Source: a virus. Taken from it: 37,427 nucleotides of DNA. The notes beneath the pieces are model-generated. The model saw only the letters and a list, made by a program, of their open reading frames with translations, was not told the origin of the DNA and did not search any database. Made by a program: the position numbers and the translations under genes. Shown in pieces: positions 1 to 26,822 of the stretch. Position 1 is the first letter of the stretch; every line of letters starts with the position of its first letter. The stretch covers positions 1-37,427 of the IMG/VR virus record IMGVR_UViG_3300030098_003003. The stretch is one strand, 5' to 3'.

Positions 1-3000
1 TCTATCCATTCAGCTAAAAAATTAGATCTTACATCTCCAATAGCTCCATCGCTTAATAAATCAGAAGTTATACTTTCAGCCAACCAATAATCTTTAGGTT
101 GAGAATAACCTTCGTCTTTTTTAGATATTAAACCTATGGCATCCGCATAAGATTGTAACTCAGGATTGTTTTGTACAAAACTTGTTAATCCAGCAAGATC
201 TCTCTTTGACAAACCTGGTATTTCAAAACCAGCTTTATCCCAAAGGTAAACTCTAATAGCTTGATCGTGAGTATAGTCCATTCCTTCTATACTTTTGTTT
301 AGTAGTTTTTTTATTTTAGGAAATGCTTTATTTAAATTTTTAAAGTCATTCGCGGCGGTTTGTCTTGAAGAGTTTAATTCGTTTATACCTCTAGCAAATG
401 GATCTATTAAAGCTTTTTTAAAGAAAGCCATATCAGCTTCTCCCTTTTTTCCTTTACCTAAAAAGCTATATAATAATCCTTGAAAATCTTGAGCTGAAGC
501 TGGTATTATACTTTTGTATTTAGTTTTAGCTCCTCTAATTTTAGCTTGAGCATCAGAAAATTGTTTTTGTGATTCTATACCAGTTGAACCTTCTAATATA
601 TCATTAAAATCTACACTCATTGATTCGCTAAACTTAACTTTAGCTTGTTGTACTTTGGACTTAACATCAAATTGATCCAACATATTTTGTACAGCTTGTA
701 CGTTTTGAAGCGCATCATCAGCAAAATAAAAATCATTATATCCTTCGCCAACTTTATCAGCTATCCAAAGCGCTTTAGCTTCTGATGTAGAATTAGCTAG
801 GCCAGTTATATTTTTTAAAGGTATATTTAAACCATTAGCTTTTAAGAAATCAAATATAGCCTTAGCAGCTTGTGGTGGTCTTGCTGTTAACACAAACATG
901 TTTTCAGGACCAAACTTATTTTGTAGTTTTATAGCTTTATTAAATAGAGGTGCTAATTTTCCTTTTACAACTTTATTAAAATCTGAAAAATCAAAAGTAT
1001 AACCTTTGTCTAATAGATCTTCGTAGGTATTAGCGTATTGTTCCGCGTTTAAAGTTCCAGTAGTTCCATCTGGTCTAGTAAACTTAACCAAAGACTCGGT
1101 CGTAGCTAACGTGTCATCAAAATCTAGAACTGTAATACCTTTAGGTTCTGTTTTTACTCTTGATTTTTTAATAGCTTCATCTAAAATTTTATTTTCCTCG
1201 TTTTTCTTTTTGATAGCATTATAAGCATCTACAAACGCTTGAGATTTAGGATCAACTTGTCCAGTTGTAACATCAATCAACTTTAAGTTTATTTTACCAA
1301 AAGTTTTTAAATTAAAATATCTCTTAAGAACATTGTCGCCTAATGACCATTCCGCTGGCATAGAAGATTTGTAATGCGCATCAAATATTTCTGCTTGCTT
1401 ATCTGGTACTATAGCAACCGAAAATTGATCTAATAATTTTTTTATATCAGCTTTGGTTGTTTTTCCTGTAACATAGTCACCTAAATACATTTGAACAACG
1501 TCTCTAGGTATAAGGTGCTCGTAAGTATGCGTTGAAGATTTTATAGGGCCATCGACAGTATGTGAAACATGAGCTGCCGCAAAAAGAGGTCCAGACGTAC
1601 CACCCTGTATAGACTTCATGATCATAGCGTAATCATTTAAAGTTATACCTTTTTTTGGGTCCATTTTATTTAACTCTAATAAATCTCTACAAATATCACT
1701 AAGTTCAATTAAAAATTCTTTATTTCTATTTGCCGAATCTTTATTTACCTTTGCTTTAGCTGGTGTACTTACATCTACATTAACACTTTGCGAAGCATCT
1801 GCAGGTATATTATTTTTATATTTAGGTGTCCACTCTTTAAAACCAACACCTATCCTAGCATCCCAATGTTCTCTTCCAGCGAACAAACCTGTTCTAAGAC
1901 TTTCTAGTTCTGTTAAAGCCCTTTGTTTAGCTTTTTTTATTTTATTCTCCCAACTTTTAATAGTTGCTTTTGGCTTACCTTCATCTTTTGCTTTTTGTAA
2001 ACTTTTTTCTAGTTTGTCAATTTTATTTTGATCAAACATAGCATCTATTACGTAACCAATATCTGGAATCCATGTATATTTAGTACCTCCAATTTTACCA
2101 GAAGAACTCAAGATAGGTCTTAAAAATCTATCTGCTTTTTCGTAACCTATTATATGGGCAATTTTTTCTACAGCTTTTATAGCTGAATCGATTTGATTTA
2201 TATCCCTAAAGTTCATAGCATCTTTAGCCAAACCTAGCATTTGCTTATAACTTTTATCAAAGTCACGCATAGCGGTTTCGTTAATAATGTATTCCGTTAA
2301 TGGTTGAATTGGAGCGCCTATTAGATCATATAGTTTTTTACCCTCAAGATATGTGTCAACATATTTTTCTAGATCTTTTATTATTTTGTCTCTCATTTTG
2401 TCTCCAAACAAATCCGGATCTTTATACGTTTTATTAAAAGCTATACGAACATTGTTACCGTGGTTAGCAAGTTCTTGCCCAAGTACAGGTAGTAAATCAT
2501 AAAAAATAGCTCTTTCATCTTCGGGTAATAAAGCAAAACTCTCACTCATTTTAACACCACCACGTTCAATATCTTTTGATATTTCGTTAGCTATGTTTTC
2601 AGATACTATTCTATCTCTTAATCCTTCTTTATTTTTAAATAATTCATACAAAGGACCTTTGTTTGCGAAGTCATTATGTAATAATTCTAACCCTAACTCA
2701 CCTATTATTTGAGTAGCTAATCCTTCTTGCTTACTTTGTATAGGGCTAACCGTACCCGTTTTGTTATTTACTTTTATAAAGTTCTTATCAAAATCTGTAA
2801 CAGCCGCAATAGCTTGTGGGTTTCTACGCATTATTTGGTGTTGTGCTGTTCTCTTGTGTACCGCTGCTATTTCTTTATCTATTTTTTTACCTTTCCAATT
2901 TTTGTATTTTACAAACTTAGGATTAAAACCAATAACTTCTCTTTTTCCTGTTTCTGGATTTATTCCATACACCTTTGTTCCACCAACAGATTTTTCTATG

Positions 3001-6000
3001 GCCTCAGGAAAGTTTCTAGATAACCAAGAGGTTGTCATTGCTTTTAAAATGAAAGGTTTGTTATCTATTAAAAAATTTTGAAAATCAATACCTTTTCTAC
3101 CCATGAAGTCTATAGTTCCAAATTGACCACCCTCTAATCTATCACCTAATTTTTTCTTTATCGTGCTAATAAAATCAGATGTCTTTTTGTTTTTAGATGT
3201 TGTGGTATTTATAAGTGGAAGTTCTTGCGCTATTATGGTACGTAGCTTATCTATTACATAGTCACGATAAGTTGTTTGCTTACCTTCTATAGTTATCTTT
3301 TTATCGATGTCTAAATTATCCATCAGTTTAGGTTGGATCTCTTTTTCTTCTCTAACTTGTCTTTCTTCTCGAGTCTCTACAACGTCTTCTGTTGTTGGAT
3401 CTGTTATAATATCTTCTAAACCTTCTATGGCTTTAGTAAATACAGTATCTTTTACTTTACCTAATCTTTTATTAGCTATATCAATAGGTTTTAATTTTAA
3501 CCACCCAAATATATGCTTTGCCATTGTGACTGGTTTACCATCTTTACCAATTGTTCCAGGTTTAAACCTCATTATCGCTGTTTGGACACCGTACACTGGA
3601 TCATATAGTATATCGGTGTAAATATCTTGTTTTAAAAGTGGATAATTAGGTCTTCTATTAAATCTTGTTGTATTTCTCCATATGATATCTTTGGCTTGAC
3701 CTGGGCCTCTATATTCACCATCAACCCAATGATTTCCTCCAGCTTCAAGGACTTTAATAATATCTTCATAACCAAGTAAACCTTTTTTCTCGTATATGTC
3801 ATTTATTTTATCAACAATAATACTCTCAGACATTTTAGTAGTTGGATCGTCTTCATCCATTCTACCACCTTTAAACTTTGGACCAAAATATATTCCCGTA
3901 CCATTAAAAACATTGTAACCCTTAATAAAATCTAAGGCATCGCCAGCACGTAAAGCGGTATAATCTATACCAATCCTTTTGCCCATAACATCTTTTGCTA
4001 CATCGTTTATTAAATCTCCAATTCTAGAAAATGTTACACCACCTTCTGTTGTTAAATCTGTAGCGTGTACATATTGTAAAGCGTCTGACATCGAAGTAAA
4101 CATCTCTTCGATTAATATTCTTTCTGCTTGTTGTGGTGTTAACTTCTCCTCTTTGATTCTTTGAGGCATTTTCTTTTGATAATCAGCAAGTCTCATGCTC
4201 ATAAGTGTAGCCGCTGCTTTAACTTGAGGGTCTTTAGACGTCTCCAACTCTAAAAGCATTTGCATCCCCATTTCTTGCAAATCTTGTGTTGGTATATTAT
4301 CAAGTATAAAATGTAAACCATCGTGATAAATAGCATTAGCCGCAAAAATATCTTTTTTATTTCTAATATTATCTATTATTACTTCTTCAATAGCTATAGC
4401 GGTATTACCAAAATTAGCAGCGTTTCTTTGCCCTTCTATTAAAGTTTCTAAAGTAGCAACGTTGTTATTATCATTTAAATCAATACCATAGTCCTCCATG
4501 AATTGATCTTTATCTTTCATTGCGTTTTCAAGTTCTTTTATAGTTGTAAAAACTTTAAACTTTTTATCTTTAAAATTAGGATCAGTTTGGTTATCGTTAA
4601 TATATTTAGCTATACCACGAGCGCTTTTTATAGTACTACTAACTAAACTTTCTATTTTAACAAGTTCATCTATTCTACCAATCTCCTCGTTTATTTTCTC
4701 AACTTCCATCATGTCACTAGCGTGATCACGTATATCGTTGTTTGATTTATAATGTTTAGTAAGTTTGTTTCTCCGATCTATTTCGTTTTGAAGTCTGTTT
4801 CTTTTCCCTTCTAATAACTTTTTTTCAAGTAATTTATTTACAACATCTTCTTTCTGATCTTGGTTTAAATTAAAAAATTGCTGATTATTATAAGCCTGAT
4901 CTTCGATCGTCTCTAAAGCATCATATATTTTATCTCTTTTTTCTTTGCTTATAATATTGTCATTAAACTTTTGATCAGCTTTTGCTTTAGCTTTTGCGAT
5001 AACAGTCTTGATCTCATTAGGTTTACCTCTAAATTGATCTATTATATCTAAAGTACTACGTGTGGTTTTTTGAATAGTATAATTAGCCCCGATTAATGGC
5101 GCCGGGATTATAAGAGCGGTTAAAAAAGAATTCCAATATCTTTCTTTTGTATGCTCGTATTGTCCCGTTGCGTTACCAACGTGTACAATTGTTGATAGTT
5201 CTTGTCCTACTTCTGTAAGTCCAGATTGAATACTTGGAACTGTAGCCCCATAAATTCCTTTTGCAACTGGGGTTAAGGCTTTTTTAAACCTAGCCTGTAT
5301 GATATCTCTCATGAATTTTGTAGGAATAAAATCAGACGGTTTAACACCTAGTAGTTTTGGTAAAACTAAAGCAGCTTCAGTTAGTTCTAACAAAGCATTT
5401 GTTGCTCCAGTTGACATAGCCATATCCAAATCACCTTCACCTTTTTCAATAATGTCTAACCATATAGCTGCTTTTAATTGATTTGGAATATTATTATAAT
5501 CTAATCCCATTAATTTAGCTTTTTCAGCAGCTTTTATATTCATTATCTCGTCGAAAGCACCACCAGCCTCTTGTGCCACCGTGCTACCCGTACCAGTAAG
5601 AGCCCCAACTAATATTTGCATAAATTGAGTACCAAACATACCTCTAGTCTCAGTGAAAGATGGCCATTCAAAATTACCATCATCATCAAACCAATCACCT
5701 TGTTTTGGTAATAAATCAAGCATATCTTGATATTCTTGACTTCTAACCATGTGGTCCCAAAATCTCTTTCTATGCTTTAAAGATATAGTTTCTAATTTAG
5801 GTATTAAATCTCCAACTTTATATCTACCTGGAGATATTTTTTCTTCCTGTTCCATCATAGGGTGCATGTACACTACTTTTTCTGGATCAAGCTTTTTAAG
5901 CGCTACTAACATTTTTTCTACTTCTTCAATTTTTATACCAGAAGTTAGTTGTTGCCAGTCATTATAAGCCTTGGGAAACATTACCGCGGCTTGTCTCCAA

Positions 6001-7373
6001 GCACTACCAATAAACCCTTTGCCTGTTTTAGCTATTTCTGGTAGATTCATAGCGTCTAATTTTTCCGCTTTAGATAAGTAACTTATCCTATTGGTAAATA
6101 TATTGTTTACAGTGTTTTCAATTTCCTCTGTTTGTTCTTGATAATCTTCATTAGCGTTTAATATTTCATCAAATCTAATATCATATTTATTACTAAACTC
6201 ACGAGTAGCCATTTCTACCTGAATAGGATCGTTTAAATTGTATTTAACTTGTAAATCCTTTATTAAATCATTAGCATATGGTTTTAAAGCCTCTTCGATT
6301 GTTGGATATATCGCGGCAAAATCATCGCCATCAAAATAATCTTCATATGATCTCTCATAAATGTTGTCCCGGTGTATTGCTAAATCAGTTGCATCTAAAT
6401 CATTTACATTTACTGGGTTTTCGTTCGCATCTACAACATGTGTAGGTGTGTTTAATATTTTTTCTACCAACGGTGTTTGCTCAACATTTGCACCAATAGC
6501 TGCTTTGTCAATAGTTTTCCTAGCGGTTTCTTTTGTAATACCAATATTATCAGGGTGACTTCCAGTAATGTTAAAATATTCATCTTTCCAACTTTCTGTT
6601 TCTTCTTCAGGCGTTGTTATAGGATCGTCTTCGTCAATTGTAACAGGTTCTCCGTCTTTTTCTACAACTTCTTCTTTTTTGTCACCAATAAAAGGATTGT
6701 TATAATTTATAATATCTAATACACTTGGAACCCGCCCACTACCAAGCCCACCTGTTTTCTTAAAATCAAAAGTTGGATCTTGTGTAACATCTTCTTGTGT
6801 AACATCTTCTTTTATATCTTCTTCTACAACTTCTTCTACATCTTCTTCTACAATATCTTCTTGTGGTTCGGGTTGTGACCACGTGCTAATGTTAAAATCA
6901 AAACCTGGCTTTTGTTTTTTTAAATCAAAACCTGGCTTTGTTTTTTCTTTTTCTTTACCCCAACCTTCTTCCCAGTATCCAGCCTCTTCGTTGTATCCAG
7001 ATCTTTTAACACCCTGTTTAAAGTTGTACGGTGCTATAGGTACCCAATTGTCAACCTCTGGATTATACTGTAAGTAAACACCCTTTTCTCCATCTATATT
7101 TCTTATATTGCCTTTATAATCTTTATATTCATCATCTCCTTTACGGGCAATTTTATATCTTCTAACATGTTTTGGATCTTCTACGATTTCTTCTTCTGCA
7201 ACTTCCTCCTCTGCAACTTCCTCTTCAACCTCTTCCTCTTCTTCTACAACTTCCTCCTCTTCGATTTCCTCTTCTACACCATGCTTTTCATCGTGCTCTT
7301 TCTTAGTAAGAGTGTTGTGTAAAACCTCACCTTCTACTTCGTTATGTTTTAATGGAGATAGTTTCTTTAACAT
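1..7373 (-). CDS. Giant probable ejection/internal virion protein with embedded HAD phosphatase domain (3' end outside window)
   Basis: An open frame runs without a stop from an ATG at 7373 to the left edge, giving at least 2457 residues. It starts MLKKLSPLK and continues into a Glu-rich low-complexity stretch (about residues 30-65). Residues about 580-770 hold hydrophobic and Gly/Ala-rich segments with a TEVGQEL motif, a pattern seen in very large phage ejection or polyvalent proteins. Residues 1948-1960 contain a STHTYEHLIPRDV motif of unknown role. Residues about 2078-2225 form a HAD-type hydrolase domain: DFDDT (2084-2088), LTARP (2162-2166), a Lys-containing helix (K2200 or K2207) and FADD (2217-2220). 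The gene is last of three tandem genes (313 aa, 469 aa, giant) that resemble a T7 gp14-gp15-gp16 set in order and size trend. Function as an injected virion protein is inferred; the HAD substrate is unknown. Its start lies 1 base after the upstream stop. Confidence 0.85.
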   Translation of the reverse strand, partial: MLKKLSPLKHNEVEGEVLHNTLTKKEHDEKHGVEEEIEEEEVVEEEEEVEEEVAEEEVAEEEIVEDPKHVRRYKIARKGDDEYKDYKGNIRNIDGEKGVYLQYNPEVDNWVPIAPYNFKQGVKRSGYNEEAGYWEEGWGKEKEKTKPGFDLKKQKPGFDFNISTWSQPEPQEDIVEEDVEEVVEEDIKEDVTQEDVTQDPTFDFKKTGGLGSGRVPSVLDIINYNNPFIGDKKEEVVEKDGEPVTIDEDDPITTPEEETESWKDEYFNITGSHPDNIGITKETARKTIDKAAIGANVEQTPLVEKILNTPTHVVDANENPVNVNDLDATDLAIHRDNIYERSYEDYFDGDDFAAIYPTIEEALKPYANDLIKDLQVKYNLNDPIQVEMATREFSNKYDIRFDEILNANEDYQEQTEEIENTVNNIFTNRISYLSKAEKLDAMNLPEIAKTGKGFIGSAWRQAAVMFPKAYNDWQQLTSGIKIEEVEKMLVALKKLDPEKVVYMHPMMEQEEKISPGRYKVGDLIPKLETISLKHRKRFWDHMVRSQEYQDMLDLLPKQGDWFDDDGNFEWPSFTETRGMFGTQFMQILVGALTGTGSTVAQEAGGAFDEIMNIKAAEKAKLMGLDYNNIPNQLKAAIWLDIIEKGEGDLDMAMSTGATNALLELTEAALVLPKLLGVKPSDFIPTKFMRDIIQARFKKALTPVAKGIYGATVPSIQSGLTEVGQELSTIVHVGNATGQYEHTKERYWNSFLTALIIPAPLIGANYTIQKTTRSTLDIIDQFRGKPNEIKTVIAKAKAKADQKFNDNIISKEKRDKIYDALETIEDQAYNNQQFFNLNQDQKEDVVNKLLEKKLLEGKRNRLQNEIDRRNKLTKHYKSNNDIRDHASDMMEVEKINEEIGRIDELVKIESLVSSTIKSARGIAKYINDNQTDPNFKDKKFKVFTTIKELENAMKDKDQFMEDYGIDLNDNNNVATLETLIEGQRNAANFGNTAIAIEEVIIDNIRNKKDIFAANAIYHDGLHFILDNIPTQDLQEMGMQMLLELETSKDPQVKAAATLMSMRLADYQKKMPQRIKEEKLTPQQAERILIEEMFTSMSDALQYVHATDLTTEGGVTFSRIGDLINDVAKDVMGKRIGIDYTALRAGDALDFIKGYNVFNGTGIYFGPKFKGGRMDEDDPTTKMSESIIVDKINDIYEKKGLLGYEDIIKVLEAGGNHWVDGEYRGPGQAKDIIWRNTTRFNRRPNYPLLKQDIYTDILYDPVYGVQTAIMRFKPGTIGKDGKPVTMAKHIFGWLKLKPIDIANKRLGKVKDTVFTKAIEGLEDIITDPTTEDVVETREERQVREEKEIQPKLMDNLDIDKKITIEGKQTTYRDYVIDKLRTIIAQELPLINTTTSKNKKTSDFISTIKKKLGDRLEGGQFGTIDFMGRKGIDFQNFLIDNKPFILKAMTTSWLSRNFPEAIEKSVGGTKVYGINPETGKREVIGFNPKFVKYKNWKGKKIDKEIAAVHKRTAQHQIMRRNPQAIAAVTDFDKNFIKVNNKTGTVSPIQSKQEGLATQIIGELGLELLHNDFANKGPLYELFKNKEGLRDRIVSENIANEISKDIERGGVKMSESFALLPEDERAIFYDLLPVLGQELANHGNNVRIAFNKTYKDPDLFGDKMRDKIIKDLEKYVDTYLEGKKLYDLIGAPIQPLTEYIINETAMRDFDKSYKQMLGLAKDAMNFRDINQIDSAIKAVEKIAHIIGYEKADRFLRPILSSSGKIGGTKYTWIPDIGYVIDAMFDQNKIDKLEKSLQKAKDEGKPKATIKSWENKIKKAKQRALTELESLRTGLFAGREHWDARIGVGFKEWTPKYKNNIPADASQSVNVDVSTPAKAKVNKDSANRNKEFLIELSDICRDLLELNKMDPKKGITLNDYAMIMKSIQGGTSGPLFAAAHVSHTVDGPIKSSTHTYEHLIPRDVVQMYLGDYVTGKTTKADIKKLLDQFSVAIVPDKQAEIFDAHYKSSMPAEWSLGDNVLKRYFNLKTFGKINLKLIDVTTGQVDPKSQAFVDAYNAIKKKNEENKILDEAIKKSRVKTEPKGITVLDFDDTLATTESLVKFTRPDGTTGTLNAEQYANTYEDLLDKGYTFDFSDFNKVVKGKLAPLFNKAIKLQNKFGPENMFVLTARPPQAAKAIFDFLKANGLNIPLKNITGLANSTSEAKALWIADKVGEGYNDFYFADDALQNVQAVQNMLDQFDVKSKVQQAKVKFSESMSVDFNDILEGSTGIESQKQFSDAQAKIRGAKTKYKSIIPASAQDFQGLLYSFLGKGKKGEADMAFFKKALIDPFARGINELNSSRQTAANDFKNLNKAFPKIKKLLNKSIEGMDYTHDQAIRVYLWDKAGFEIPGLSKRDLAGLTSFVQNNPELQSYADAIGLISKKDEGYSQPKDYWLAESITSDLLSDGAIGDVRSNFLAEWI
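640..1150 (-). other. HAD-superfamily phosphatase domain inside the giant protein
   Basis: The four HAD motifs are in order. Motif I is VLDFDDTLA (nucleophile D2084, acid/base D2086), motif II is FVLTARP (T2163), motif III is a Lys in the EAKALWIADK helix, and motif IV is YFADDALQNV (D2219, D2220). Spacing between motifs I and II is about 75 residues, with a TRPDGTTGTLNAEQY segment as a likely cap or insert. All expected catalytic residues are present, so it looks active. The substrate cannot be read from sequence; nucleotide or nucleic-acid phosphate is a reasonable guess for an injected phage enzyme. Confidence 0.8.
5085..5640 (-). other. Hydrophobic, possibly membrane-active segment of the giant protein
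   Basis: Residues about 580-770 contain Gly/Ala-rich hydrophobic runs (FMQILVGALTGTGSTVAQE and FLTALIIPAPLIGA) around SGLTEVGQELSTIVHVG. Similar Glu/Gln-punctuated helices next to hydrophobic stretches are common in giant phage proteins thought to cross the host envelope during DNA entry. This is a pattern-based reading and could also be packing helices of a soluble protein. Confidence 0.4.
6778..6866 (-). repeat. Imperfect short tandem repeat encoding acidic VTQED/VEED units
   Basis: On the plus strand the unit is close to TGTAACATCTTCT, repeated with drift, and the minus-strand product reads EDxxxED-type acidic units such as EDVTQEDVTQD. It is an in-frame low-complexity linker near the N-terminus of the giant protein, likely prone to length change by slippage. 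Confidence 0.6.
6894..6940 (-). repeat. Short direct repeat (KPGFD x2)
   Basis: Two nearly identical 19-base copies beginning AAATCAAAACCTGGCTTT lie 28 bases apart and encode KPGFDLKKQKPGFDFN in the giant protein linker. This is a small in-frame duplication with no evident regulatory role. Confidence 0.6.
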
Positions 7374-7374
7374 A

Positions 7375-8784
7375 TTATTGATTTAATTGTGTATTATCTA
7401 AAGGCGCTTGTCCAGTGGCAGCAACACCTTTGTCAACCATTTCTTTTTTCTCTTTATCTTGTTGTGCAATGTCAGCATCAGTTAATCCCGTTGGATATAC
7501 TTGACCATCAAAAGTAAATTCTTTTCTACCTTCTTTTTTTGCCTCTGCTTTGTCTTTTTTAAATCTAACTTTTATTAATTCTCTTTGCTTTAGTCTCATT
7601 ACACTTAATCTTCCCTCGTCAAAGCCCATGCCTTTCCACCAAGCGTTTTCTAATTTAATGGTGTAATATTCCTTTACTAATCTTCTTAATAATTCCATGT
7701 CAAAAAATGGATTATCAACATCTACTATAGCATCGGCAATTTTAAACTTATCTATCTCAGATATCATATCTTTCCAATCTCTTACATCTCCTTCTCCTAA
7801 CGCTAAATTTAATTCGTCAAACCTATCTAATTCAAGCGAACCATAACTAAGATTTTGTATATTAGGATGTTCTAACAAATGTCTTATAAACGTACTACCG
7901 TCTTCTAAAATAGCATCGTCATGCGCAAAAGCTAATACTAATTCATTTTGCTCGTCAGTAGCTTCGCCATCAAAATACCCAAACAATTGATCTATTTTGT
8001 AGTTTATAGATCCTAGATTTATTTTAACTGCAGATTTATTTTTTCTAGCTTCAACAGCATCTCTATTTGTTTTTCTTAAAAAGTTTAAATATTCTAATAC
8101 TTTTACTTTATTAATAAGAAACATATCTTTATTTGCTTCCACAACAGGTATTAAAGCAACTCTATCATAAAAATCATAAACTACAGCATATTGAGTACCC
8201 TCGAGAACTAAATTACCGTAATAATCTCTTTGGTTTCTCGCTATATCTTGTTTAGTAGCAAAAGTAACTTTTAAATCAGGGTTGTCACAAAATATTTGAG
8301 TGGCAAAACTTATCTGTTGCTTAGAGACACCTTTAGATAAATGACTTCCTGGCAACAAATGATCTTCATAAAATAATTGTCTTTCTTTTATCATTAGCTG
8401 GTTAAGTCGATCTAAAGCTGCTAATTTTACCATTATCTCTTTTTCTAATGTTTTATCATTATTGTTTATTGCTTCCCATATTTCACCATGCCACATTTTA
8501 ATTTGTTTCGTGTTAGCAACGGTAAACGCATGTGGTAAAACTGAGTCTTTACCTTCTACTTCAAAAAGTCTTCTCAAGTTCTTTCGCAGCATTAAATCTT
8601 TTGCTTTTCTTCTACGCATAGAATCTGGTTCAGAAGCTTTATACATAAATTGTAATTCTTCCCAGTTTTTACGTCTTTGATTTTCTGATAGTATATCCAT
8701 ACCGGCATCCATAGCGCTTTCCATTCGTTGGGCCTGCTCTTGGAGATCTCTTTGTTTTAAAGGTGATGGTATTACTTTTTTCAT
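7375..8784 (-). CDS. Probable internal virion/ejection protein (469 aa), SPLK-tagged
   Basis: The protein begins MKKVIPSPLKQRD, followed by a charged helical region rich in Arg, Lys, Glu and Met (about residues 11-80), then a mixed alpha/beta body with no motif I can assign. The C-terminal quarter is Lys/Glu-rich and contains KEFTFDGQVYPTG, then a Gln/Asn-rich tail. It has no signal peptide or membrane segment. It sits between a 313-aa coiled-coil protein and the giant HAD protein, all three sharing an N-terminal SPLK. Position and size suggest the gp15-like member of an internal core; this is inference and no catalytic role is visible. The start has an AT-rich leader (AATTAAAAATAAATTATC) and no Shine-Dalgarno. 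Confidence 0.8.
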   Translation of the reverse strand: MKKVIPSPLKQRDLQEQAQRMESAMDAGMDILSENQRRKNWEELQFMYKASEPDSMRRRKAKDLMLRKNLRRLFEVEGKDSVLPHAFTVANTKQIKMWHGEIWEAINNNDKTLEKEIMVKLAALDRLNQLMIKERQLFYEDHLLPGSHLSKGVSKQQISFATQIFCDNPDLKVTFATKQDIARNQRDYYGNLVLEGTQYAVVYDFYDRVALIPVVEANKDMFLINKVKVLEYLNFLRKTNRDAVEARKNKSAVKINLGSINYKIDQLFGYFDGEATDEQNELVLAFAHDDAILEDGSTFIRHLLEHPNIQNLSYGSLELDRFDELNLALGEGDVRDWKDMISEIDKFKIADAIVDVDNPFFDMELLRRLVKEYYTIKLENAWWKGMGFDEGRLSVMRLKQRELIKVRFKKDKAEAKKEGRKEFTFDGQVYPTGLTDADIAQQDKEKKEMVDKGVAATGQAPLDNTQLNQ

Positions 8785-8804: not shown

Positions 8805-9746
8805 TTAAAAGATACTGAACATAGATCTTATACCTTCATCTCTTTGAGCTCTAGAGGCAGCCTCCATAGCATCTGCCTTGTCTTCGTCTGATCTAGCTCT
8901 ATCCATTTCTAAGTTAGCTTGACCCAACATAGTTTCTGCTCTTTGCATTTCTCTAGCTTGTACACCTTCTTCACCTCGTGCTTCTGCCATTTGTATATCC
9001 ATTTGTGCCCCGGCTGTTGCCATTTGCATATCACTAGCCGCTTTGAGTTCGGCAGCCTGCATAGCGCCTTCAGCATCCATAATAGTTTTTTGAATATCCA
9101 TGTCGGCTTGATTAGTTTGAGTATCAAGTCTACTTTGTTCAGCCGCTGTTTTTATTGATATATCTTGACTTGCTTCCGCTGCTAATTTGGCATTTGCAGC
9201 TTCTTGAGAACCAATAGTTGCTGATGCTCTTTGTGCTTGTAACGCGCCTTGATTAGCCATAGATTGTGCTAACGCTGCGATACCAGAACCACCTGCCGCA
9301 GAAGACATTTGAGACATAATATTAGCTTGCATTTGTTGGTTTTGTTGTGCTTCAAATTCTGCTTGTTGTTGATTTACAGTAAGATCTTCAAAAGCATTTT
9401 CCATATCTTCAAAAGCATTTTTTTGTTGCGCAAATTTATTTTCCATATCTGCGTAAACATTCTCTTGATCTTCATAAACATTATCTAACCCCTCGTAAGC
9501 GTTTTGTATATCCTCAAAAGGATTGCTTATATCTATTTCTTGTACATCTTCTAAAGCTTGTGTAATCGCAGTTTGAGCTGCTGTATTTGCGTCTCTAGCG
9601 TTTGTTTGCCTTTCTTTAGCATCGTTTAATGATCTTTGACCACTTATAACATTCATTACAGCCCCAGGTCCCATAATTTTAAGAGGAGAAGGTTTTAATA
9701 ATTTATTACCATTTTTGTCTAACATATTTATATCTTTATTGTTCAT
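8805..9746 (-). CDS. Probable internal virion protein (313 aa) with heptad repeats, SPLK-tagged
   Basis: The N-terminus is MNNKDINMLDKNGNKLLKPSPLK. Residues 82-123 are six exact heptads of the form N-[A/V/K]-[Y/F]-x4. The rest is rich in Gln, Ala, Met and Glu and predicted helical by eye, with a Gly/Ala/Ser segment near residues 150-175 (SSAAGGSGIAALAQSMANQG) that could be a membrane-interacting or flexible region. The protein ends in a short hydrophobic SMFSIF. Ala/Gln-rich helical proteins just upstream of larger ejected proteins are typical of podoviral internal cores (T7 gp14 position). Direct homology is not claimed. It could alternatively be a tail-associated coiled-coil protein. Confidence 0.8.
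   Translation of the reverse strand: MNNKDINMLDKNGNKLLKPSPLKIMGPGAVMNVISGQRSLNDAKERQTNARDANTAAQTAITQALEDVQEIDISNPFEDIQNAYEGLDNVYEDQENVYADMENKFAQQKNAFEDMENAFEDLTVNQQQAEFEAQQNQQMQANIMSQMSSAAGGSGIAALAQSMANQGALQAQRASATIGSQEAANAKLAAEASQDISIKTAAEQSRLDTQTNQADMDIQKTIMDAEGAMQAAELKAASDMQMATAGAQMDIQMAEARGEEGVQAREMQRAETMLGQANLEMDRARSDEDKADAMEAASRAQRDEGIRSMFSIF
9378..9503 (-). repeat. Six tandem heptad repeats (N-x-Y/F-x4)
   Basis: Within the 313-aa protein, residues 82-123 divide exactly into NAYEGLD, NVYEDQE, NVYADME, NKFAQQK, NAFEDME and NAFEDLT. An Asn recurs every seven residues with an aromatic two positions later. The regularity indicates a coiled coil or helical bundle and an origin by short tandem duplication. 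Confidence 0.85.
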
Positions 9747-9769
9747 TTTATTATCACACTTTCTGGTTA

Positions 9770-10153
9770 TTATTTACTACTTTCTACATAATCTACAGCT
9801 GTAGCAAATATTTCAGACGGTAAAGAGGAATCATTTACAAATGTTGTTTTTGCATAATATCCAACAATACCAGACGTGTTCGCTCTATTGTCTTTACTAA
9901 AAAATATATAATCCACGTTACCCGTTGGTCCAGCACTTGTGTATCCATTGTCATCATAAAAAACCTCGTTTGTATTATGATTTACTTGTGTAACTACTCC
10001 AAACGGTGTAGGTTTTGAATTTTGATATTCTGAAACTGTTCCTGGATGATTTCTACCACCTTGTCCGCTTACTGGTGTTGTCTTATATAATATATCCCCA
10101 GGTTGTATTGATACGTTTATCTGGTGACTAAAATTTATCATTTGTATTGCCAT
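9770..10153 (-). CDS. Small beta-rich virion-type protein (127 aa)
   Basis: The protein starts MAIQMINFSHQINVSIQPGDILYKTT and looks all-beta, with VSIQPGDILY and PFGVVTQVNHNTNEVFYD resembling strands of a small barrel or decoration-type domain. It has no Cys pairs, signal peptide or membrane segment. It lies between a 565-aa structural candidate and the internal-core genes with gaps of 11 and 23 bases, so it is almost certainly co-transcribed with the tail genes. A role as tail accessory or virion structural protein is inferred from place and composition only. The leader CTTAAAAATAAATAAC fits the local AT-rich start pattern. Confidence 0.75.
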   Translation of the reverse strand: MAIQMINFSHQINVSIQPGDILYKTTPVSGQGGRNHPGTVSEYQNSKPTPFGVVTQVNHNTNEVFYDDNGYTSAGPTGNVDYIFFSKDNRANTSGIVGYYAKTTFVNDSSLPSEIFATAVDYVESSK

Positions 10154-10164
10154 GTTATTTATTT

Positions 10165-11880: not shown

Positions 11881-14800
11881 CTAGTTTGGTACAGTAATTT
11901 GTGAATATGGATAACCATCGTGATTATTAGTAAAACCTTGAATTCCACTTGATCCATGTATACATTCCCAAGTAACATTTAAACCACTTATTGTTGTTCC
12001 ACATTCAACATCAACACTAAAACTACAAGTATCATTATTACATATTGAACTAGCAACACTTTGGGGACCACGATAAGAGGCGTATTGATAGTTTCCAAGG
12101 TGTATTTCGTACATTAATTGCATTTCTCCGAAACACACACCTGATTCAGGCCCGTAATGCTGACCATCACCAGGTCTTGTGCCAGTTTGAGAAACTCTAA
12201 TAGGAGGCATATTATGGTTAACTGCTTGGTAACCATTTCTCGGCCACGTAACAGTCATTGTTCTGTGATCCCCACTAGACGCAACACCAGCCATACCATT
12301 CCCGTTTGTTGTTGTAAATTTAGGTCCAAATGTAACGCCTTGATTTGGTATAACTATACCATATACACTTCCACCGCCATTTGGACCAGAAAACGTTGAA
12401 GGCTGAGGACAATCTGTACAAAAACCTGGACTTCCATGGGTAACAGTTGGAGTGCACCCACTAGAACATTCTCCATTTGGAGGACAATCATCATAACATT
12501 CATGTATACTTGCATATATCCCACTACCATCTCCCGGATCTACACAAGCATCAAAATGCGTATAACCACCTAGACAATTGTATGATACCTCTGAAAGTGG
12601 AGGAGGTGGAGGTGGTTGAGGATTAAGACAATCGGCGAGTCCATTGTTATCACACTCATGCCATGTGTTAAATGAACCACCTGTACCATTTATTAACGTA
12701 CACACACCTTCAAAACACTCAAATGAGTCCGCACAGTGCACGGTAACTACTTCACAAACCTCGCATCCATTAGCGTCAGTTAAGTGAATTTTATAATTAC
12801 CTTCTGGAACACCGCCTGTTAAACTACTAGGGTTGTTAAAATAAGAAGTACTAGCATATCGAGTTGTCCATGGTGCTTGATTTGGCCCATCAACAATAAC
12901 TCCAGTGTCCGCGTTTGTTATAGTATAAGTATAACTTATACCACTCCCTATATTGTATTGAGGAAGACCCGCAATTTGCGAACCAGTACCATGTGTCCAA
13001 GGCGTAAAATATATAATCCCATTACTTTCCCCACATGTCGCGGGTGTTGTTGTTCTAAAATCAATTCTAGGTGGATCAAAACCTGCACAAGCTGGAACTG
13101 GATCACAATCCGGAGGTCTACAACTAGTTTGGCAATCAGCTAAAGTACTATACGCTCCGCTTCCATCACCAGGATCAGTACAAGTCCAGATCAAATTATT
13201 ACCAAATTGTTGAGGAAGAAAATGTGTATACATCCAACCACAATCATATGATTCAGAAATAGGAGGTATACAATTAGTTTGACAAGTAGCTAAATCCGCG
13301 TACGTTCCACTACCATCTCCTGGATCTATACAATTACCATTAACACACTCCCAAGATTCTGGTACATTACAATTTTGTTGACAAGCAGCTAAACCACCGT
13401 TTCCAGCGTGATAATCACCACTACCATCACCAGGGTCAATACAACTACCAACATCTGAGTGACAATTCCAAGTTACAGGCGTACAATTTGTTTGACAAGC
13501 GGCTAATCCACCATTGTTTTGATTGTACTGTCCATTACCTGTTCCTGGATCTACACATGCGCCATTAATACAATCCCATGATGCCAAAGGAGCTGTTGTA
13601 TCTGTAGCATATCCAAGACCCTGAACTGAAAACTCTGCAGTATCTATACTATCATGTATACCAGCATCTTCAAATCCACGTATATAATTATACCATTTAC
13701 TACATTCTTTTCCTATAAATTCTGGTATATAACCATCTTGACAATCTGTAGTTATTTCTTCAACTTTCCAACCATTTTTATCCCAATTGTTATAATTAAC
13801 AATCGCAGAATTAACTAAGTTATTATTGTTATCATAAAGATCATTAGTATCATTTAAATCCCGTGTTATCTCAGCTTGTGAACCTTCGTAATTTATTGTT
13901 TTAAATCTTTTTACATTACCTTGTTTTCCATTGTATACAGTAGTAATAGTTGATAAGCTTTGTATACCATAAAAATTATTTCTAGGATACTGAATAGTAA
14001 CTTCAGTTCCACTATTAATAGCAACATCTTCAGAAACCTCAATATTACTAATTTCTTTTTTACTAGGAGTTGATGCATGAATAAAACCAGGTCCAGTAGC
14101 TAGATCAATAGCGGTGACCGTTGTACCGTGTCTAATACCATCACCAATAACATTAGCTCCTATTACAACTTCTTTTGAGTTAATATCATTAACCTTTGAT
14201 CCAAGTTGACTAGTAATAGATACTATTTTAGTATCAATATTTCTATGGTGCTCCCACATCTCACCAATAGTACCATGACCAGGTATACTATAATAATCGT
14301 TATTAGGTACCGTATAATAACTATTGTTATGACTAAACCCGTCTTGTTGAATAAAACTTTTAAAACTAACCCAACCTTTAGTGCTTTCGGAATAACTTAA
14401 CGTATAAGTTTTATTTTCTGGATTATGAGATTTTTCAGTTGTTTGTATGGTTAAATTATATTGATCTTTTACTTCGTCATAACTACCTATTATACTTTTA
14501 CCATCTTCTTTTTTTGCACCATATAAATAATCTTTAAACCAATCTTTCATACCGTAATTAGATATATTGGTTATACCATCTCTCGATAATCTTAATACAG
14601 AACCTTTAGTTTGATCTGTAAAGTACAATCTATATGATTCAGCGGCAAATGATTCTGGATGTTTACCTATTCCATATTCACCAACAAAAGGTATTGTTTG
14701 ACCTAAAACATTAGCACTAGCGGTAACATTTGTATTTCCATCAGCGTTAAATAAAGCATCTTTTTTAGCAAGTATTTTGAATACTTTATTTTCACAAAAC

Positions 14801-17800
14801 GTAACTAAATCTGTATCTCTAGCATATAATTTTTGAATACTACCATTTTCTGGATTTATATCTTTAGTTATAGGCTCCGCTTGTATAAATTGATTTGTTT
14901 CATTTATTCCGCTTGTAGAGTTGTATATTCCAGAAAATATTAATCCTGATTTTTTTCTTTCTTCTTCATAAGCTTCAGCTAAAGGAGCAGAAGCTTTAAC
15001 ACCTTTGTCTATAGTAACGGCGTTATAATCATCTCTTATTCTATTTGACTCCACACCATTACCAAATGAATAACAATTAAAGTAACTTAACGTACGTCTT
15101 TCATTATGCGTTATTGGTTCTATTTCTATTAAAGTTGGAGAATAAACGGCTAAAATGTTAGCTTTAATTGTAAGTTCATCTTGTTGGGCACCATACCATC
15201 TTCCTTGTCCATTAAATTTAAAAGTTAATTGACTACCAATAGGTGGATTTGTTGGTGTACCAGCTGGAACTGTACCTTCATAAATATGTGAATTTAACCA
15301 TATTAAATTATCTTGAATACCATCTACTATACCACTTAGTGTGTTACCACTAGCATCTGAAGCACCAATTGTACATGTTGATAGAACTGGTATGTATTCT
15401 TCATCTCTATAATGGTAATCAACCCAACCATCATCATTTGGTAAAAGAAGTTCTTCATTACGATGTCTTTTTAGTGATATAGGATATGATGGACTTGCCG
15501 CATAATATATATCTAAACCTACATCTTCCATTGGTTCTGTTTCAAAAATAGCAGGATTAGTACTCATAGGCTTATCTGTTTCATCACCTTCGTAGACACC
15601 AACTATTTCTATAGTAGTTTGGTTTAAACCTCTTTCATGCAATCCAATGTGTTGGCCGGTCGCTTGACTTGCTGCGTCATTAGACTGTTCATAATCTTTG
15701 TAAGTCGCAACATTGGTACCAACGTATGCTGGTACAGTATCTGCATTCCAATAACTACTTAAATTATACATACGGAATCTACGACCAAAAGATGTTGGTG
15801 TAGCACCTTTAGCATAACCACCTGTAAAATCAGTAAAGTCCATACCACCTGGTACACCCGAAGGTTGAGATCCACTTCCTTTAGCTAAGTGAGGGAAAAT
15901 ACCTCCCATATCAACATCATACACTTTTCTACCACCTAGTATATTAGCTTTACCATTTTCATCAACGTGTCTCGTTATTGGATGGAATCCATTTGGCCCC
16001 ATACCTATTTTTCTATCTAATTTTACGGTATATCTTATTCTTTTATTTAAAAAGTGACTACCATATGCCCAACTTTTAGGCCAAGATAAATTACTAGGAT
16101 CATTGTAAAAATCAGATAAAAACGATGTTTTACCAGCTAATGATTGTGTACCATTAACACCTTCCGCGTTAAGACCTCCCAAAGGTGGGTTTACACCAGC
16201 AGTTGCTCCGGCGCCCATATCTGGAACAGGAGAACCACAACCTAGTGAAGGTTGCCATGATGGATCAATAGGATATCTTCCAATTGGTGCTTCGTAATTA
16301 TAAACTTCTTGTGGTGGAGAGCATGCTGTTATAGTATATACTATTTGATCTGGATCTTGTTTAAATCTAAATTTAGTACCAGGTGTTTTAAGATATTGTG
16401 CAAATTCTAATTCTCCTTGATATTTATCTAATTCAGCTTCCCATTCCCCGTCTATTGGTCTATTAGTTGTCCCTTGTGTATCTCCTATACCAAAATACGA
16501 TATATCCATATACGAAACATGTTCACCATCCCAAATACCATTACCTGAGTAACCACTAGCCGCGCCAACTTTATCTATAAACCATCTATCCCAATCTTTT
16601 GATGCTGCCCATCTAATATCAGGATTATCTGCATCTATAGCACTTTGTCTTAATAAATCATATCCTTCGTAAAGTGCAGTCCAATCTTCAGATAATTTTT
16701 TTATAGTATTTGCGTCGTAAATCCATTTACCATAACTATTACCAAATTCATCTTCACCTTTACCTTGCCCTACATCATTACCAGTAGGTGAGTAATAAGG
16801 AGATCTAACATCTGTAGCTGGATATGTATCTATATTTGTTCTTTGAGAATTACATAATATACCAAACCCCATATTATCACCCCATATAGCGGGTTTATTA
16901 AAAGGATTTATACCCGCCCAAGTTGTGGTGGCTACCGAATCTAAAGTTGTTGATGGAACAACATTAGGTGGAGTACCAGTACAATTATTAAACTCTCTAC
17001 CAACACTAGCCATAGCGCCAATACCAGTATGTGCATAACCAAAGTTTGTATGATCTGCTGGTGTATTTGGACTACCAGGTTGCGGTATATGTGTATTTTC
17101 TACTAAAGCCACGAAATCAGTTCCTGGTGGCGACCAAAAACTAGGTATAAACGAAGGCCAATCATTAGATTGTCTACCTAACATTGTCCCCCAAATAGGA
17201 TTACAATCTGGAGTTTGTGTTGGTCTACAATCAAATATAAACCAATCATATAAATTACTTAAAAACGTAGTACCACCATGAACATTTGGAGGTGATGGCA
17301 CAATTGTAGCAGAGCCTGTTGGTGCTGCTCCAGAATAACATCCAGGACCAAAAGGCCAAGGCCAGTCAGCGGAGCTAAATGGTTGTATTCCTGAGTTACC
17401 ATCTATATTCCACGCTCCATAACCAGTCCAATAAGTAATTCCAGTTGGTGGGGTAGGTGACCATTGATTTAAGTAAGTATACGCTTGGAATCCAGCAGGT
17501 AAATCTGGTGGGAAAGTAATAGATGATTGATTTGGTTTTTGCCAACCAGCTTCCCCAGCGTATTGATGCAAACTACTCATTATTTGAGGGTTTTCTACTC
17601 TACACGCGTTATAATCTGGTTGATGCCCCAAAGGATTTTGATAACCAGAACCTTGACCACCTAATGTGCTCATATCATAACCACCGTCAACAGGGCCATG
17701 AGGAATATAATTTGTAAATTGTTGAGGACCCGTGGTTCCTATTACTTGTTGTCCAAATGCGTTATAGTGTATAGGTGTAGAACGTTGGTTAGGATAAACA

Positions 17801-20800
17801 TCTGCATCTACCATTGGTGACATTCTAGACCAATCTTGTACACCCGGGTGAGCAGCGCTAATATATTTTATATCCCTACTCATTAATACTTGATAATCAG
17901 CAGATGCAGCTGTCTTTGCAGCTATTATATTGTTTTCAATAATACCATCTCTATGTATTTTAACGAAAAATCTACCATCAAACTGTGCTTTATCTCTTAC
18001 TATAGTTGTTTTAGCTTCTACTGATAACCCTCTTGATAATTCTAAGTTATCAGTTGGAGTACAAAATCCTAAATCACTACCCATAACTTTTTCAAGCACT
18101 ATACTAACTAAAGATGTGTCCACACCTGCCTCTTCTTCTACAGTGGTAATTGTTCCACCAGTAGAAGGATCTGGTACTTCAATTTCTTGTAGTTGTGGCG
18201 AAGCACCAATACGAGCAAAGTGAGCTACATCATACCATTTTGATTTATTTGATAAAAGATTAGCTGTACTACTATAACTAGAAGAAAAACCAGGGGCTTG
18301 TACTACCCTAACTTGAACTGCTCTTTCAGAATCTAATTCAGCAAAAACTGATTGATCCCAGTATTCGGCATATATATCTAGATTTCTACGTTCTGGTAAT
18401 GGTAATCCCGTTGAATAAAACATACCCGAAGCCCAACCGCCAGGTTTACCACCTGTTCCCCAACCAGGAGGAGGTAACATAACTGGTAAACTACCCCAAA
18501 ATTGCTCTTCTTTCTTTATAAAAGGAGGGGCATCGTTTTTTATAGATAAAACTTTATAAGTAGTTTCATCAATAACTGCTTTATCATTATCATGTTGCTT
18601 TTTTAGTATTAAATGGGTTTCATCTGTTATTTTATTTCTTTCCGAAGAAGGAAATGACAACCATATACCACCATCTTCGGCGTCATACCATCTATCTAAT
18701 GCTAAATTATAATATTCGTTTGAAGTTTCTTTTATATAAAAAGTATAAGATTCAGCCCACTCAGGATAATCTGTATTTAAAGATACATTTATCTTATTAA
18801 ATTTTACAGCTTCTGATTTAGAAATTTTAAAGGTACCTGATTCCGAAGTTAAAACAGGTGTTTCTCTACCATATCTATCTCTATATACAACGCCCAACTG
18901 ATAATTTCTCATTGATTTTAGAGATTTAGCTGGTAATCCAGACGTCGTAGATTGTCCTGATGCTAAACTAGTAGGATCGAAAGAATCTATATCAACACTA
19001 AATATTGGCTTTATAGGTAAATCACTATTATCTAAAACATTATAATTTTGTACATAATTAGCATAAATCAATCTATTAGCTGTTATTTCTTGTGCTTGAG
19101 CTACTCTAGGTACATTATCCCATGGTCTTAATAATTGATTAGAAGGAAGTACGGCATGTATTAAATCTGTAGTAATTGTATATACACCTTTGTTTTCTGT
19201 TTGCGAATTACCTACTGTATGCCAAGGGTTTGTTGTTAATGGAGCTATGGCTGGATCAATTGGTTTAAGACTATCAACAGTATAAATATTTGGAGAATTA
19301 GATTCTTTATATAAAATATCTATTTGAACAACATCTTTAGGTATATTTTTAGGTACCCATTCTGTAACTTTTAATGATCTAACATTATTTGACATACCTA
19401 AATTATAACCTTTTTTAGGTAAATAATCAAATTCACCAGGTATAAAAGCTACTTCTGACCAAGGACTAAAAACAGAATATTCTCCATCTTCAAATTTATA
19501 TCTATAACCAAATTTAGGAAACTTTTTCTCAAACATTGGTGGTTTTTGAACAAGTTTTACATCAAAAAAGCTACTGGCATCAATAATAACAGGTGTGTTA
19601 GCTGATATCGATGTGATTCTAACTTGTAAAACACCTGTTGGAAACCCGTTTAACGTAGGGTTCGCTGTTGTTGGTGTCATATGGGGATTAGTTATAATAA
19701 CATTAATATAACATGTTTGTGTATTACCGTAAACATTTAAAAATGTACCAGTTATTTCTAACTTATCATTAATTTGCCAATCCTCACCACTTTGACTTGG
19801 TATTATAGGTATAAGTATTTCATCTCCAACACTAGACAATTCCTTAAACTCATTACAAAAAATACTGTAATGTGTCATACCAACAGTGTCTCCCGTAAGA
19901 GGATCTTGCATAGGTGTTGATAAGTCTGGTCTTGAAGCACCAAGTACATTTGTACCACTAGGATAAAAAGGATTGAAATTAGGATCGCTAGGATCAGTAG
20001 GAAAAGGAGTTGTGTTTGTTGGTGGGTCTAAAAACTCATCGTATGTAACACCGGAAAAATTACCACGTATATCTATTACACCATCGTTGTTAACGTCTGG
20101 TTGAATATAACTAAACATTTCTAATTTAGGAGGAGTTGTAGGACCTTTTCGTATAACAGAAATATGTTTTTCTTGTACATATAATGGTCTACAAATACAA
20201 TAATTACTATTATAATATCCAGACATTCCAGTGTGACAAGGATTTATTGTAGGATCATATCTGTCATCAAGACCTCTGTTGACACCAGTATATTCGGTTA
20301 ATACTGCATCATCGAAAACAAAATTTATACTTGGATCAACTTGTACCCATTGCTGTAACCCATCATCAATTAAGGTAGTTGTAGTTTGGTTAAAACTACC
20401 ACCAACAGAACTTAAAGTTTGAGTATATATTTGTGTGGTAATTCCAGTACCTGTTGGTCCTTGTGGTGCTAATGGAGGCGGCGCAGCTGCCATGTAACTT
20501 ATAGATGGCGTATTTTCAGCATCATTTAACAATTCAACAAACGAAGATAAAGATTCATCTCCATAATCTATTGATGAAACACGTTGGGTTGTACAACCTT
20601 GACTTCCATACTGTGTAGTGATTGAAGATGTTGGTGTGAGTGTATTTGTATTAACAATATCATTAGTATATTGTGTTGAAGTTGAATCATTACAACTTCC
20701 ATCGTTAATAGTAGCTGCTGGATTATAATTTTTTGATAAAGGATCTGTACAACCCATTATACTACTTAATCGCTTTTTTCCTCCTGAATTACAAAGATCC

Positions 20801-25319: not shown

Positions 25320-26822
25320 TTACTTCATTAACATAAAGTTGTTAGCACCTTGAGTAATTAAACATCTTTCAGAAAGCATGTGAATCTGCATCGCGTCAAG
25401 CGCTGACGTAGCAGCACCAACCGAACCAGTAACCCATGTTTTCATTCGTCTGTCATCAGTTTGAGAAGCTCTGTAACGAACATGTAAAAATGGACGTTTT
25501 AAGTTTTTCCCTAACATTTGGTCATAAACAGTAGATGTACCAGCTGGGACTATTACCCCTCTAATAGCAGCACTACCTGCTCGATCGTTGATACCACCTC
25601 TTGTAGCTTTATCGTTTAAGTATCTCATATCTGATTTGTAGAAGTCATAAGAACCTCTTCGGAATCCAGAGAAACCTAAATTTAACGCCATATCTTCAGA
25701 GTTGTTGAATACTCCATAAGAAGTACCACCAGCACCGTAAGAATTCATTGAAGCCAACATGTCGTCCATCGCTAACGAAGTAGCTCTGTTTACAAACATC
25801 ATGTTTTCTTCAATAGCACCTTGTTTATCAAACTCAGCTAAGATAGCATCAAACTCTGCTAGATCAGTAGCAGGATTAACACCAGTAACACCAGAAGTTA
25901 AATTACCTCTATCTTCGATAGCTGCAAATAAACCTTCAGTACCAGCACCATTAGCACCAGCATCAGCAGATCCTCTAGTTTGACCATTTTCACCAAAACC
26001 AATAACAGATGCAGCAGCTGTTTTTTCAGCTTCTAACATACTCATTTCTAAGTAATCATTGAAACGTGCTCTTGTATCAGCCTCAGCTTTTAAGTACCAC
26101 ATGTATCCAGCAGCACCACCTTCAGAAGCTACTTCAACCCAACCGATTCTAGCTGTATCAGAACCTGATACTTCGTAGTAATCTTTTAAAATGATTGGTT
26201 TGTTAGAGAAACTTTTGAACGTAGGCTCGTTAGCACCTCTTGATTCAGTTTTGTACGTACCAGTTTCGTCTGAATAAGACATTCCTTTACCGTACTCAGA
26301 ACCAATAACTAATACAGTTGCTGTACCATCAGATAAAGTTGATAAAGCAGCGGTAGCATAAGGCTCAACTGAAACAACGTTTGAATCTGGAGTTTCAACA
26401 GCTAATGCTTTAACTACAACACCAGACTGTGCTATTAATAACATATCATTAACTCTAATACCGTGAGCTCTACTTGTTGTACTACCAACTGTTGTATCAC
26501 CATCAATATCAGAAGTAATTGCTAATGTACCGTTTGTATCACCATCAGCATCTACCGTACAAACGTACGATAAGTGTAATCTTGATTGTTCAGACCAAAC
26601 AACTTGGTCACCCATCATAGATTCTTCAGCTCCAACTTGTGAAAGGAAACCAGATATAGTCCTAGGACCAAATACCTCAGCTTCTTTCTCCATTAGATCT
26701 GGTAAATATTGCTGCGCCCAACCTTCATTAGCTGTAGACGCAAGATCTAAGTAATTTGTAGATAATGTTTGCTTCTGTGAAGCTGGAACACTATTTAAAT
26801 TACTTCCTGCAGTAATTGCCAT
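25320..26822 (-). CDS. Major capsid protein (500 aa)
   Basis: The protein lies directly after the portal and probable scaffold and has the length and composition of a HK97-fold capsid protein: Ala/Gly-rich, no Cys-rich or signal regions, and a helical N-arm (LDLASTANEGWAQQYLPDLM). An Asp/Gly/Val-rich beta insert at about residues 88-175 (DADGDTNGTLAITSDIDGDT ... VNDMLLIAQSGVVVKAL) looks like an added domain. The backbone-like part continues with WYLKAEADTRARFNDYLEMS and IAEFDKQGAIEENMMFVNRA-type helices. The strong terminator just downstream and an optimal AT-rich leader agree with very high expression. Size and the run of neighbours are like crAss-like capsid proteins (about 490-500 aa). Some of the insert could be a decoration domain. 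Confidence 0.85.
   Translation of the reverse strand: MAITAGSNLNSVPASQKQTLSTNYLDLASTANEGWAQQYLPDLMEKEAEVFGPRTISGFLSQVGAEESMMGDQVVWSEQSRLHLSYVCTVDADGDTNGTLAITSDIDGDTTVGSTTSRAHGIRVNDMLLIAQSGVVVKALAVETPDSNVVSVEPYATAALSTLSDGTATVLVIGSEYGKGMSYSDETGTYKTESRGANEPTFKSFSNKPIILKDYYEVSGSDTARIGWVEVASEGGAAGYMWYLKAEADTRARFNDYLEMSMLEAEKTAAASVIGFGENGQTRGSADAGANGAGTEGLFAAIEDRGNLTSGVTGVNPATDLAEFDAILAEFDKQGAIEENMMFVNRATSLAMDDMLASMNSYGAGGTSYGVFNNSEDMALNLGFSGFRRGSYDFYKSDMRYLNDKATRGGINDRAGSAAIRGVIVPAGTSTVYDQMLGKNLKRPFLHVRYRASQTDDRRMKTWVTGSVGAATSALDAMQIHMLSERCLITQGANNFMLMK

Follow-up and report, generated by a model that had tools for sequence, protein, structure and literature searches.

Phages express RNA-repair enzymes such as T4 Pnkp and Rnl1 after infection. 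Could an enzyme of this kind also enter the cell ready-made, as part of a giant virion protein? The question is raised by a phage contig of 37,427 b (the window), which constitutes the whole virus record. Its minus strand carries a giant ORF (3..7373) of at least 2457 aa, open at the contig end with its 3′ end lying beyond it, which encodes a probable ejection or internal virion protein of the polyvalent type and contains a HAD phosphatase core (645..1142, minus strand; residues ~2078-2243). If this domain heals nucleic-acid ends and enters ready-made alongside the genome, its action would precede any block of phage expression by defence nucleases.

Genomic setting and probable delivery

The terminase large subunit (TerL), portal and major capsid protein (MCP) genes of the window, together with five neighbours, are homologous to and colinear with gp90-gp97 of Cellulophaga phage phi38:1 (blastp 1e-9 to 1e-154). 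All lie on the minus strand: TerL at 30512..32728 (PHROG_6681, 4.1e-169; 46% to elemo phages), the portal protein at 28113..30509 (PHROG_6547, 4.9e-149; 39.5% to elemo phages), a major capsid protein-like homologue of phi38:1 gp93 at 25320..26822, and a 3359-aa homologue of the virion structural protein gp97 at 11881..21960 (blastp 2.5e-48). Judged by this TerL-portal-MCP-gp97 block and its conserved order, the window phage is a phi38:1-like podovirus of the Pervagoviridae/Pachyviridae neighbourhood. The clade appears to match “group 2” of PMC5332604, and from this correspondence the host is probably a marine Bacteroidetes.

The last three genes of the window occupy the places of phi38:1 gp99, gp100 and gp101. 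A 313-aa ORF (8805..9746, minus strand) and a 469-aa ORF (7375..8784, minus strand) are the syntenic counterparts, without blastp matches, of gp99 and of the structural protein gp100, and form the third and second candidate ejection proteins. By position, the giant gene corresponds to phi38:1 gp101, elemoA gp21 and phi19:3 gp129. All three are labelled (virion) structural proteins, a label that for these isolates is record annotation. A profile built from the giant proteins scores elemoA gp21 and phi19:3 gp129 at 41 bits each and phi38:1 gp101 at 20.6 bits over the whole sequence, and reports none of 200 shuffled sequences. Taken alone, the homology to phi38:1 gp101 is weak. The ejection-protein position assigned in the original prediction is thus upheld by synteny and by profile homology to the giant “structural proteins” of phi19:3 and elemoA, and less strongly by that to phi38:1.

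Packaging and injection are proposed by analogy with the polyvalent proteins treated in the main text of PMC5512222 and with ejected giants of the N4 vRNAP type (PMC12633501). On these grounds the giant protein is probably packaged in the virion, and synteny and homology make its delivery into the cell likely. It is quite unlikely that the protein is instead retained in the virion, or made late as a non-virion protein, with the HAD domain acting late. Such a role would be compatible with isolate labels that stem from record annotation. Against it stand the position of the gene directly after the tail and head genes, its gp99- and gp100-like partners, its homology to giants that carry a (virion) structural protein label, and its polyvalent layout.

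A short SP[LAV][KE] motif (e.g. LSPLK, PSPLK, GSPAK) lies near the N-terminus of the three candidate ejection proteins, whose genes are consecutive, and of three further window proteins (minus-strand ORFs 3-7373, 7375-8784, 8805-9746, 35194-35556, 36253-37065 and 37071-37304), and is possibly a targeting or processing tag. It is absent from the phi38:1, elemoA and phi19:3 counterparts of the three candidate ejection proteins, and as a packaging tag it was not used as evidence.

Layout of the giant protein

Across relatives, the giants share a virion-type N-terminal core, an HExxH metallopeptidase motif, the HAD domain and a conserved C-terminal module of ~650 aa. Complete ORFs that hold the HAD domain span 1478-3450 aa (all 123 first examined), and in these motif I mostly falls 840-960 aa from the C-terminus. 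The HAD domain is always found inside a giant protein and is co-conserved with the C-terminal module. Mean column conservation reaches 0.56-0.78 for the HAD domain and most of this module, and 0.23-0.34 for the upstream two thirds. The module itself (e.g. residues ~2430-3100 of the relative L067) is strongly conserved but bears no Pfam name except for a weak DUF5763 at its extreme C-terminus; it has weak homology to Tenacibaculum phage Gundel_1 gp074.

The zincin-like HExxH motif lies 700-1300 aa upstream of the HAD domain in 220 of 238 relatives. Its window counterpart, HDGLH (4311..4325, minus strand; residues 1017-1021), carries Asp in place of Glu. This HDxxH form recurs in a few other relatives (L158, L164 and L172) and suggests that peptidase activity has been lost or altered. 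Between 100 and 240 aa upstream of the HAD domain lies a conserved but unnamed region, marked by an EH..P motif (140/238 relatives), which in the window reads EHLIP (1506..1520, minus strand; residues 1952-1956). The giants therefore combine several unrelated enzymatic domains (the HExxH region, the HAD domain and, in some, a kinase), of which the window copy has the HAD domain and the altered HDxxH.

Domain databases say little about the window protein. Neither Pfam nor NCBIfam gave a match over cut-off, DUF2608 falling just below (22.5 versus a cut-off of 22.6). LPD14 was matched once, weakly (0.0054), among 14 relatives, and no LPD match was seen in the window protein. Sequence searches of the PDB by phmmer and by profile returned chance-level matches only, none of them for the HAD domain. 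These include shikimate kinase (0.019) and Certhrax (0.064), the latter covering a non-HAD stretch; an Anti-RecBCD_p2 match (0.032) was likewise treated as chance.

Conservation of the HAD active site

The original prediction described a giant protein of at least 2457 residues with all four HAD motifs intact at positions 640-1150. The motifs are indeed complete, the limits are right to within a few codons, and the strand is minus. Motif I, DFDDT (1110..1124; residues 2084-2088), supplies the nucleophile D2084 (codon 1122-1124), the acid/base D2086 and T2088, and is followed by a flap or cap segment (1053..1091; residues ~2095-2107). The motif II threonine is T2163 (885..887) in LTARP, with LTAR at residues 2162-2165; the motif III lysine is K2200 (774..776) in EAKALW (residues 2198-2203); and the motif IV pair is D2219 and D2220 (714..719) in FADD (residues 2217-2220). 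All of these features are read from the minus strand.

Scanning IMG/VR with the 180-aa HAD domain yielded 93 relatives, of which 80 were retained; further scans with a profile and with divergent members yielded at least 572, at least 444, and 198 relatives. Conservation was tallied with an HMM search that did not require the motifs, which gave 366 domain hits in 342 related marine viral loci, with 308 distinct sequences among the matches listed. Counting aligned residues, with a deleted residue scored as a gap and left out, the two motif I aspartates are Asp in 342/342 and 343/343 relatives, the motif II threonine is kept in 341/341, the motif III lysine in 340/340, and the motif IV aspartates in 338/338 and 339/339. 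Retention of the nucleophile, which the original prediction had named as a check, thus holds in all aligned relatives. All catalytic residues are also invariant in an alignment of 34 sequences. Pairs of 78-88% identity give dN/dS values of ~0.08-0.24, showing that the domain is under purifying selection. Taken together with the intact motifs, this makes the window HAD domain very likely to be catalytically active.

Two relatives depart from the common form. In L075 (HAD near 9275-10459 of the locus), an 11-residue in-frame deletion, genuine or due to misassembly, removes the start of motif IV including an Asp, while a nested kinase is intact. In L271 (HAD match 8001-8684), the cap region holds a different insertion, of ~45 aa, between motifs I and II. 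Other odd motif spacings seen in relatives are mostly regex artefacts.

A cellular origin was also considered and rejected. Twelve hits fell in genome contigs, all metagenome-assembled, and the complete reading frames among them are the same kind of giant ORF; for this reason the twelve were treated as misbinned phage contigs. Among cultured phages, tblastn found either no HAD match or matches at E ~0.6 to PNK genes, and the domain was not found in the cultured relatives phi38:1, elemoA and phi19:3.

The confinement of the HAD domain to the giant protein and its co-conservation with the ~650-aa C-terminal module could also mean that it serves protein processing or virion assembly, either dephosphorylating a protein or being purely structural within that module, with or without a kinase. 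The L075 copy without motif IV, unless an assembly error, would suggest that catalysis is dispensable in places. This reading is nonetheless unlikely, for the catalytic residues are strictly invariant next to an upstream part with a mean column conservation of 23-34%; fold and kinase evidence bearing on it is given below.

Fold and family affinity

The original prediction called for structure prediction and a fold search, and these returned a HAD Rossmann core. AlphaFold2, run on the 34-row alignment, modelled the domain with a pLDDT of 87.7 and a pTM of 0.80, the order of strands and helices being that expected for a HAD core. Foldseek against the PDB ranked one GPDH entry first, followed by the class C acid phosphatase e(P4), the Legionella HAD effectors Lem4 and Ceg4, and AphA. 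Because the matches have probabilities of 0.93-1.0 but low TM values (~0.35-0.45) and E ≥ 1e-3, they support the HAD fold but not a subfamily. The presence of Lem4 and Ceg4 among the best folds would suit a domain that acts on proteins.

A search of BFVD viral models gave uncharacterised proteins from uncultured viruses as its top matches (81%, 44% and 73% identity); PNK-type phosphatases also appeared, more weakly. Three BFVD entries annotated as cytidylyltransferase-like or deaminase-like (A0A6J5MBE6, A0A218MMM0 and A0A6J5KPZ7) contain a similar HAD domain, and HAD domains of this sort may thus occur in other enzymes too. By sequence profile, 29 of 34 HAD members match PHROG_415, “polynucleotide kinase” (best 5.4e-7), the window domain only remotely at 3.4e-4; when whole related records were searched, PHROG_415 landed on the giant ORF in 8 of 16. 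The isolated HAD domain is as similar to class C acid phosphatases as to polynucleotide kinase/phosphatases (PNKPs).

This ambiguity feeds a different proposal, in which the HAD domain would be a virion-delivered small-molecule phosphatase, a 5′-nucleotidase or signal-nucleotide phosphatase that either dampens nucleotide-based signalling in the host or serves nucleotide recycling; a kinase insert, of UDP-sugar, nucleotide or zeta-toxin type, would have small-molecule substrates as well. The best PDB matches of the HAD domain alone (class C acid phosphatase/NMN nucleotidase e(P4) and AphA, probability 0.93-1.0) and the annotation of the BFVD relatives with cytidylyltransferase- and deaminase-like domains speak for it, as do the signal-targeting enzymes of polyvalent proteins discussed in the main text of PMC5512222. 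The proposal is a possible one, on the doubtful side, and the kinase found in some relatives bears on it directly.

A kinase nested in the HAD cap

In a subset of relatives (L067, L068, L069, L075 and further loci), a P-loop domain of ~200 aa separates DFDDTLATTKSG from the remainder of the HAD domain. It is present in 14 of the 282 distinct relatives scored among the matches listed, missing in the other 268, and absent from the window HAD domain. The insertion falls exactly at the cap position after motif I, with constant spacing. The domain scores above the Pfam cut-off for both AAA_33 (39.7 bits against 27) and Zeta_toxin (32.5 against 22.3), and among the PHROGs it hits the polynucleotide kinase family PHROG_505 (1.7e-7). 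Its Walker A lysine, the aspartate of VN(S/Q)D and the lid arginines are invariant. The divergent loci L190 and L191 hold a diverged version (GGPGAGKT) at the same insertion point. Small proteins of HTVC008M and Melnitz are homologous to this kinase, as is part of a longer protein of Atu_ph07.

On a tree of the HAD remainder and adjacent C-terminal sequence, built by a quick method with SH-aLRT support only, the distribution of the kinase needs at least five gains or losses, all forced by well-supported branches. The kinase has thus been gained, lost or moved by recombination several times. Such repeated traffic of a second phosphate-transfer enzyme at the active-site cap argues against a purely structural or protein-processing role for the HAD domain.

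The composite of kinase and HAD domain was modelled moderately well (pLDDT 74.8, pTM 0.49), and at this pTM the relative placement of the two parts is unreliable. Its fold search placed the CthPnkp kinase and T4 Pnkp ahead of all other structures, with Pnkp1/Rnl/Hen1 in the first 20; adenylate and dephospho-CoA kinases were also among the fold matches of the kinase. By profile and fold search, the pair appears closest to polynucleotide kinase/phosphatases. The original prediction had listed nucleotides, nucleic-acid ends and signalling molecules as candidate substrates, and of these the ends are favoured: the PHROG profiles of both HAD domain and nested kinase name polynucleotide kinase, and Pnkp enzymes head the structural matches of the composite. 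Its suggested nucleotide-based defence fared less well, as no finding points specifically to it and PADLOC gave neither a HAD match nor a signalling link. The same results weigh against the small-molecule phosphatase, to which the Zeta_toxin score and the adenylate and dephospho-CoA kinase matches would still lend some support.

Of 22 related records, 4 (those of L056, L094, L278 and L316) contain RNA_ligase (PF09414) genes that score over cut-off; in most of the 22, which are incomplete records, none was found. The L094 phage has both an RNA ligase and the kinase-in-HAD arrangement. As far as gene content can tell, the ligases of some members fit an end-healing-and-sealing pathway.

Proposed function

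The preferred reading, with a probability of about 0.4, is that the window HAD domain is a virion-delivered, PNKP-like 3′-phosphatase for end healing, kinase-free in this phage. Its polynucleotide-end substrate, argued from the kinase pairing and from profile and fold affinities, is about an even call. In the proposed course of events, the giant protein would travel inside the capsid and exit together with the genome. Within the first minutes of infection, the HAD domain would strip 3′ (or 2′,3′) phosphates from broken nucleic-acid ends, either those of the incoming genome or those of host tRNA or RNA cut by host defence nucleases. Some relatives would add a 5′-kinase in the HAD cap, creating a nested two-activity end-healing unit. 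The upstream metallopeptidase-like region may free domains by self-cleavage, although the HDxxH of the window phage may be inactive.

More tentatively, a widespread lineage of marine Bacteroidetes phages might package a ready-made end-healing enzyme, kinase-nested in a subset, which would act before phage gene expression and pre-empt tRNA- or DNA-cutting defences. The conserved active site and the natural variants with and without the kinase make the hypothesis directly testable.

Comparison with known systems

Like the polyvalent proteins of Iyer et al. 2017 (PMC5512222, main text), the window giant belongs to a class of very large multidomain proteins with a zincin-like HExxH region, a virion-type core and enzymatic domains aimed, as proposed here, at early infection. 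Zeta-toxin-like kinases are already known in that group, whereas the main text of the survey describes neither a HAD/PNKP-type phosphatase nor the nested kinase-in-HAD arrangement of the marine phage giants. The ejected giant virion RNA polymerase of N4 and DEV (PMC12633501, PMC10925440) is likewise a giant enzyme-bearing ejection protein with two smaller partners, assigned here by position; no RNA polymerase domain was detected in the window giant, which has the HAD domain instead, joined in some relatives by the kinase. The giants of phi38:1, elemoA and phi19:3 (gp101, gp21 and gp129) share the gene order from TerL to the giant gene and a homologous N-terminal core, yet lack the HAD domain of the window giant. 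The class C acid phosphatase/NMN nucleotidase e(P4) (PDB 3ocy) shares the HAD fold and is the best HAD match of the isolated domain in the PDB, but with a TM of only 0.45 and no sequence-profile match.

The multi-enzyme ejection protein is therefore already known as a kind, and what is new is the HAD domain with its nested kinase. None of the papers searched was found to describe a P-loop kinase inserted into a HAD cap, and this topology is not described for the PNKPs compared. T4-type Pnkp (PDB 1ltq, 2ia5) and the PNK-HAD family of jumbo phages (PMC7824862) also join a P-loop 5′-kinase and a HAD domain in one polypeptide, as the kinase-bearing relatives do. T4 Pnkp, however, is a small soluble enzyme with its kinase N-terminal to a complete HAD domain, and the window member has no kinase at all. 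In the kinase-bearing relatives, the kinase interrupts the HAD domain downstream of motif I, and a virion-type protein of 2100-4000 aa contains the whole unit. Repeatedly gained or lost at one cap position, the nested arrangement usefully illustrates how enzymes within virion proteins evolve by modules.
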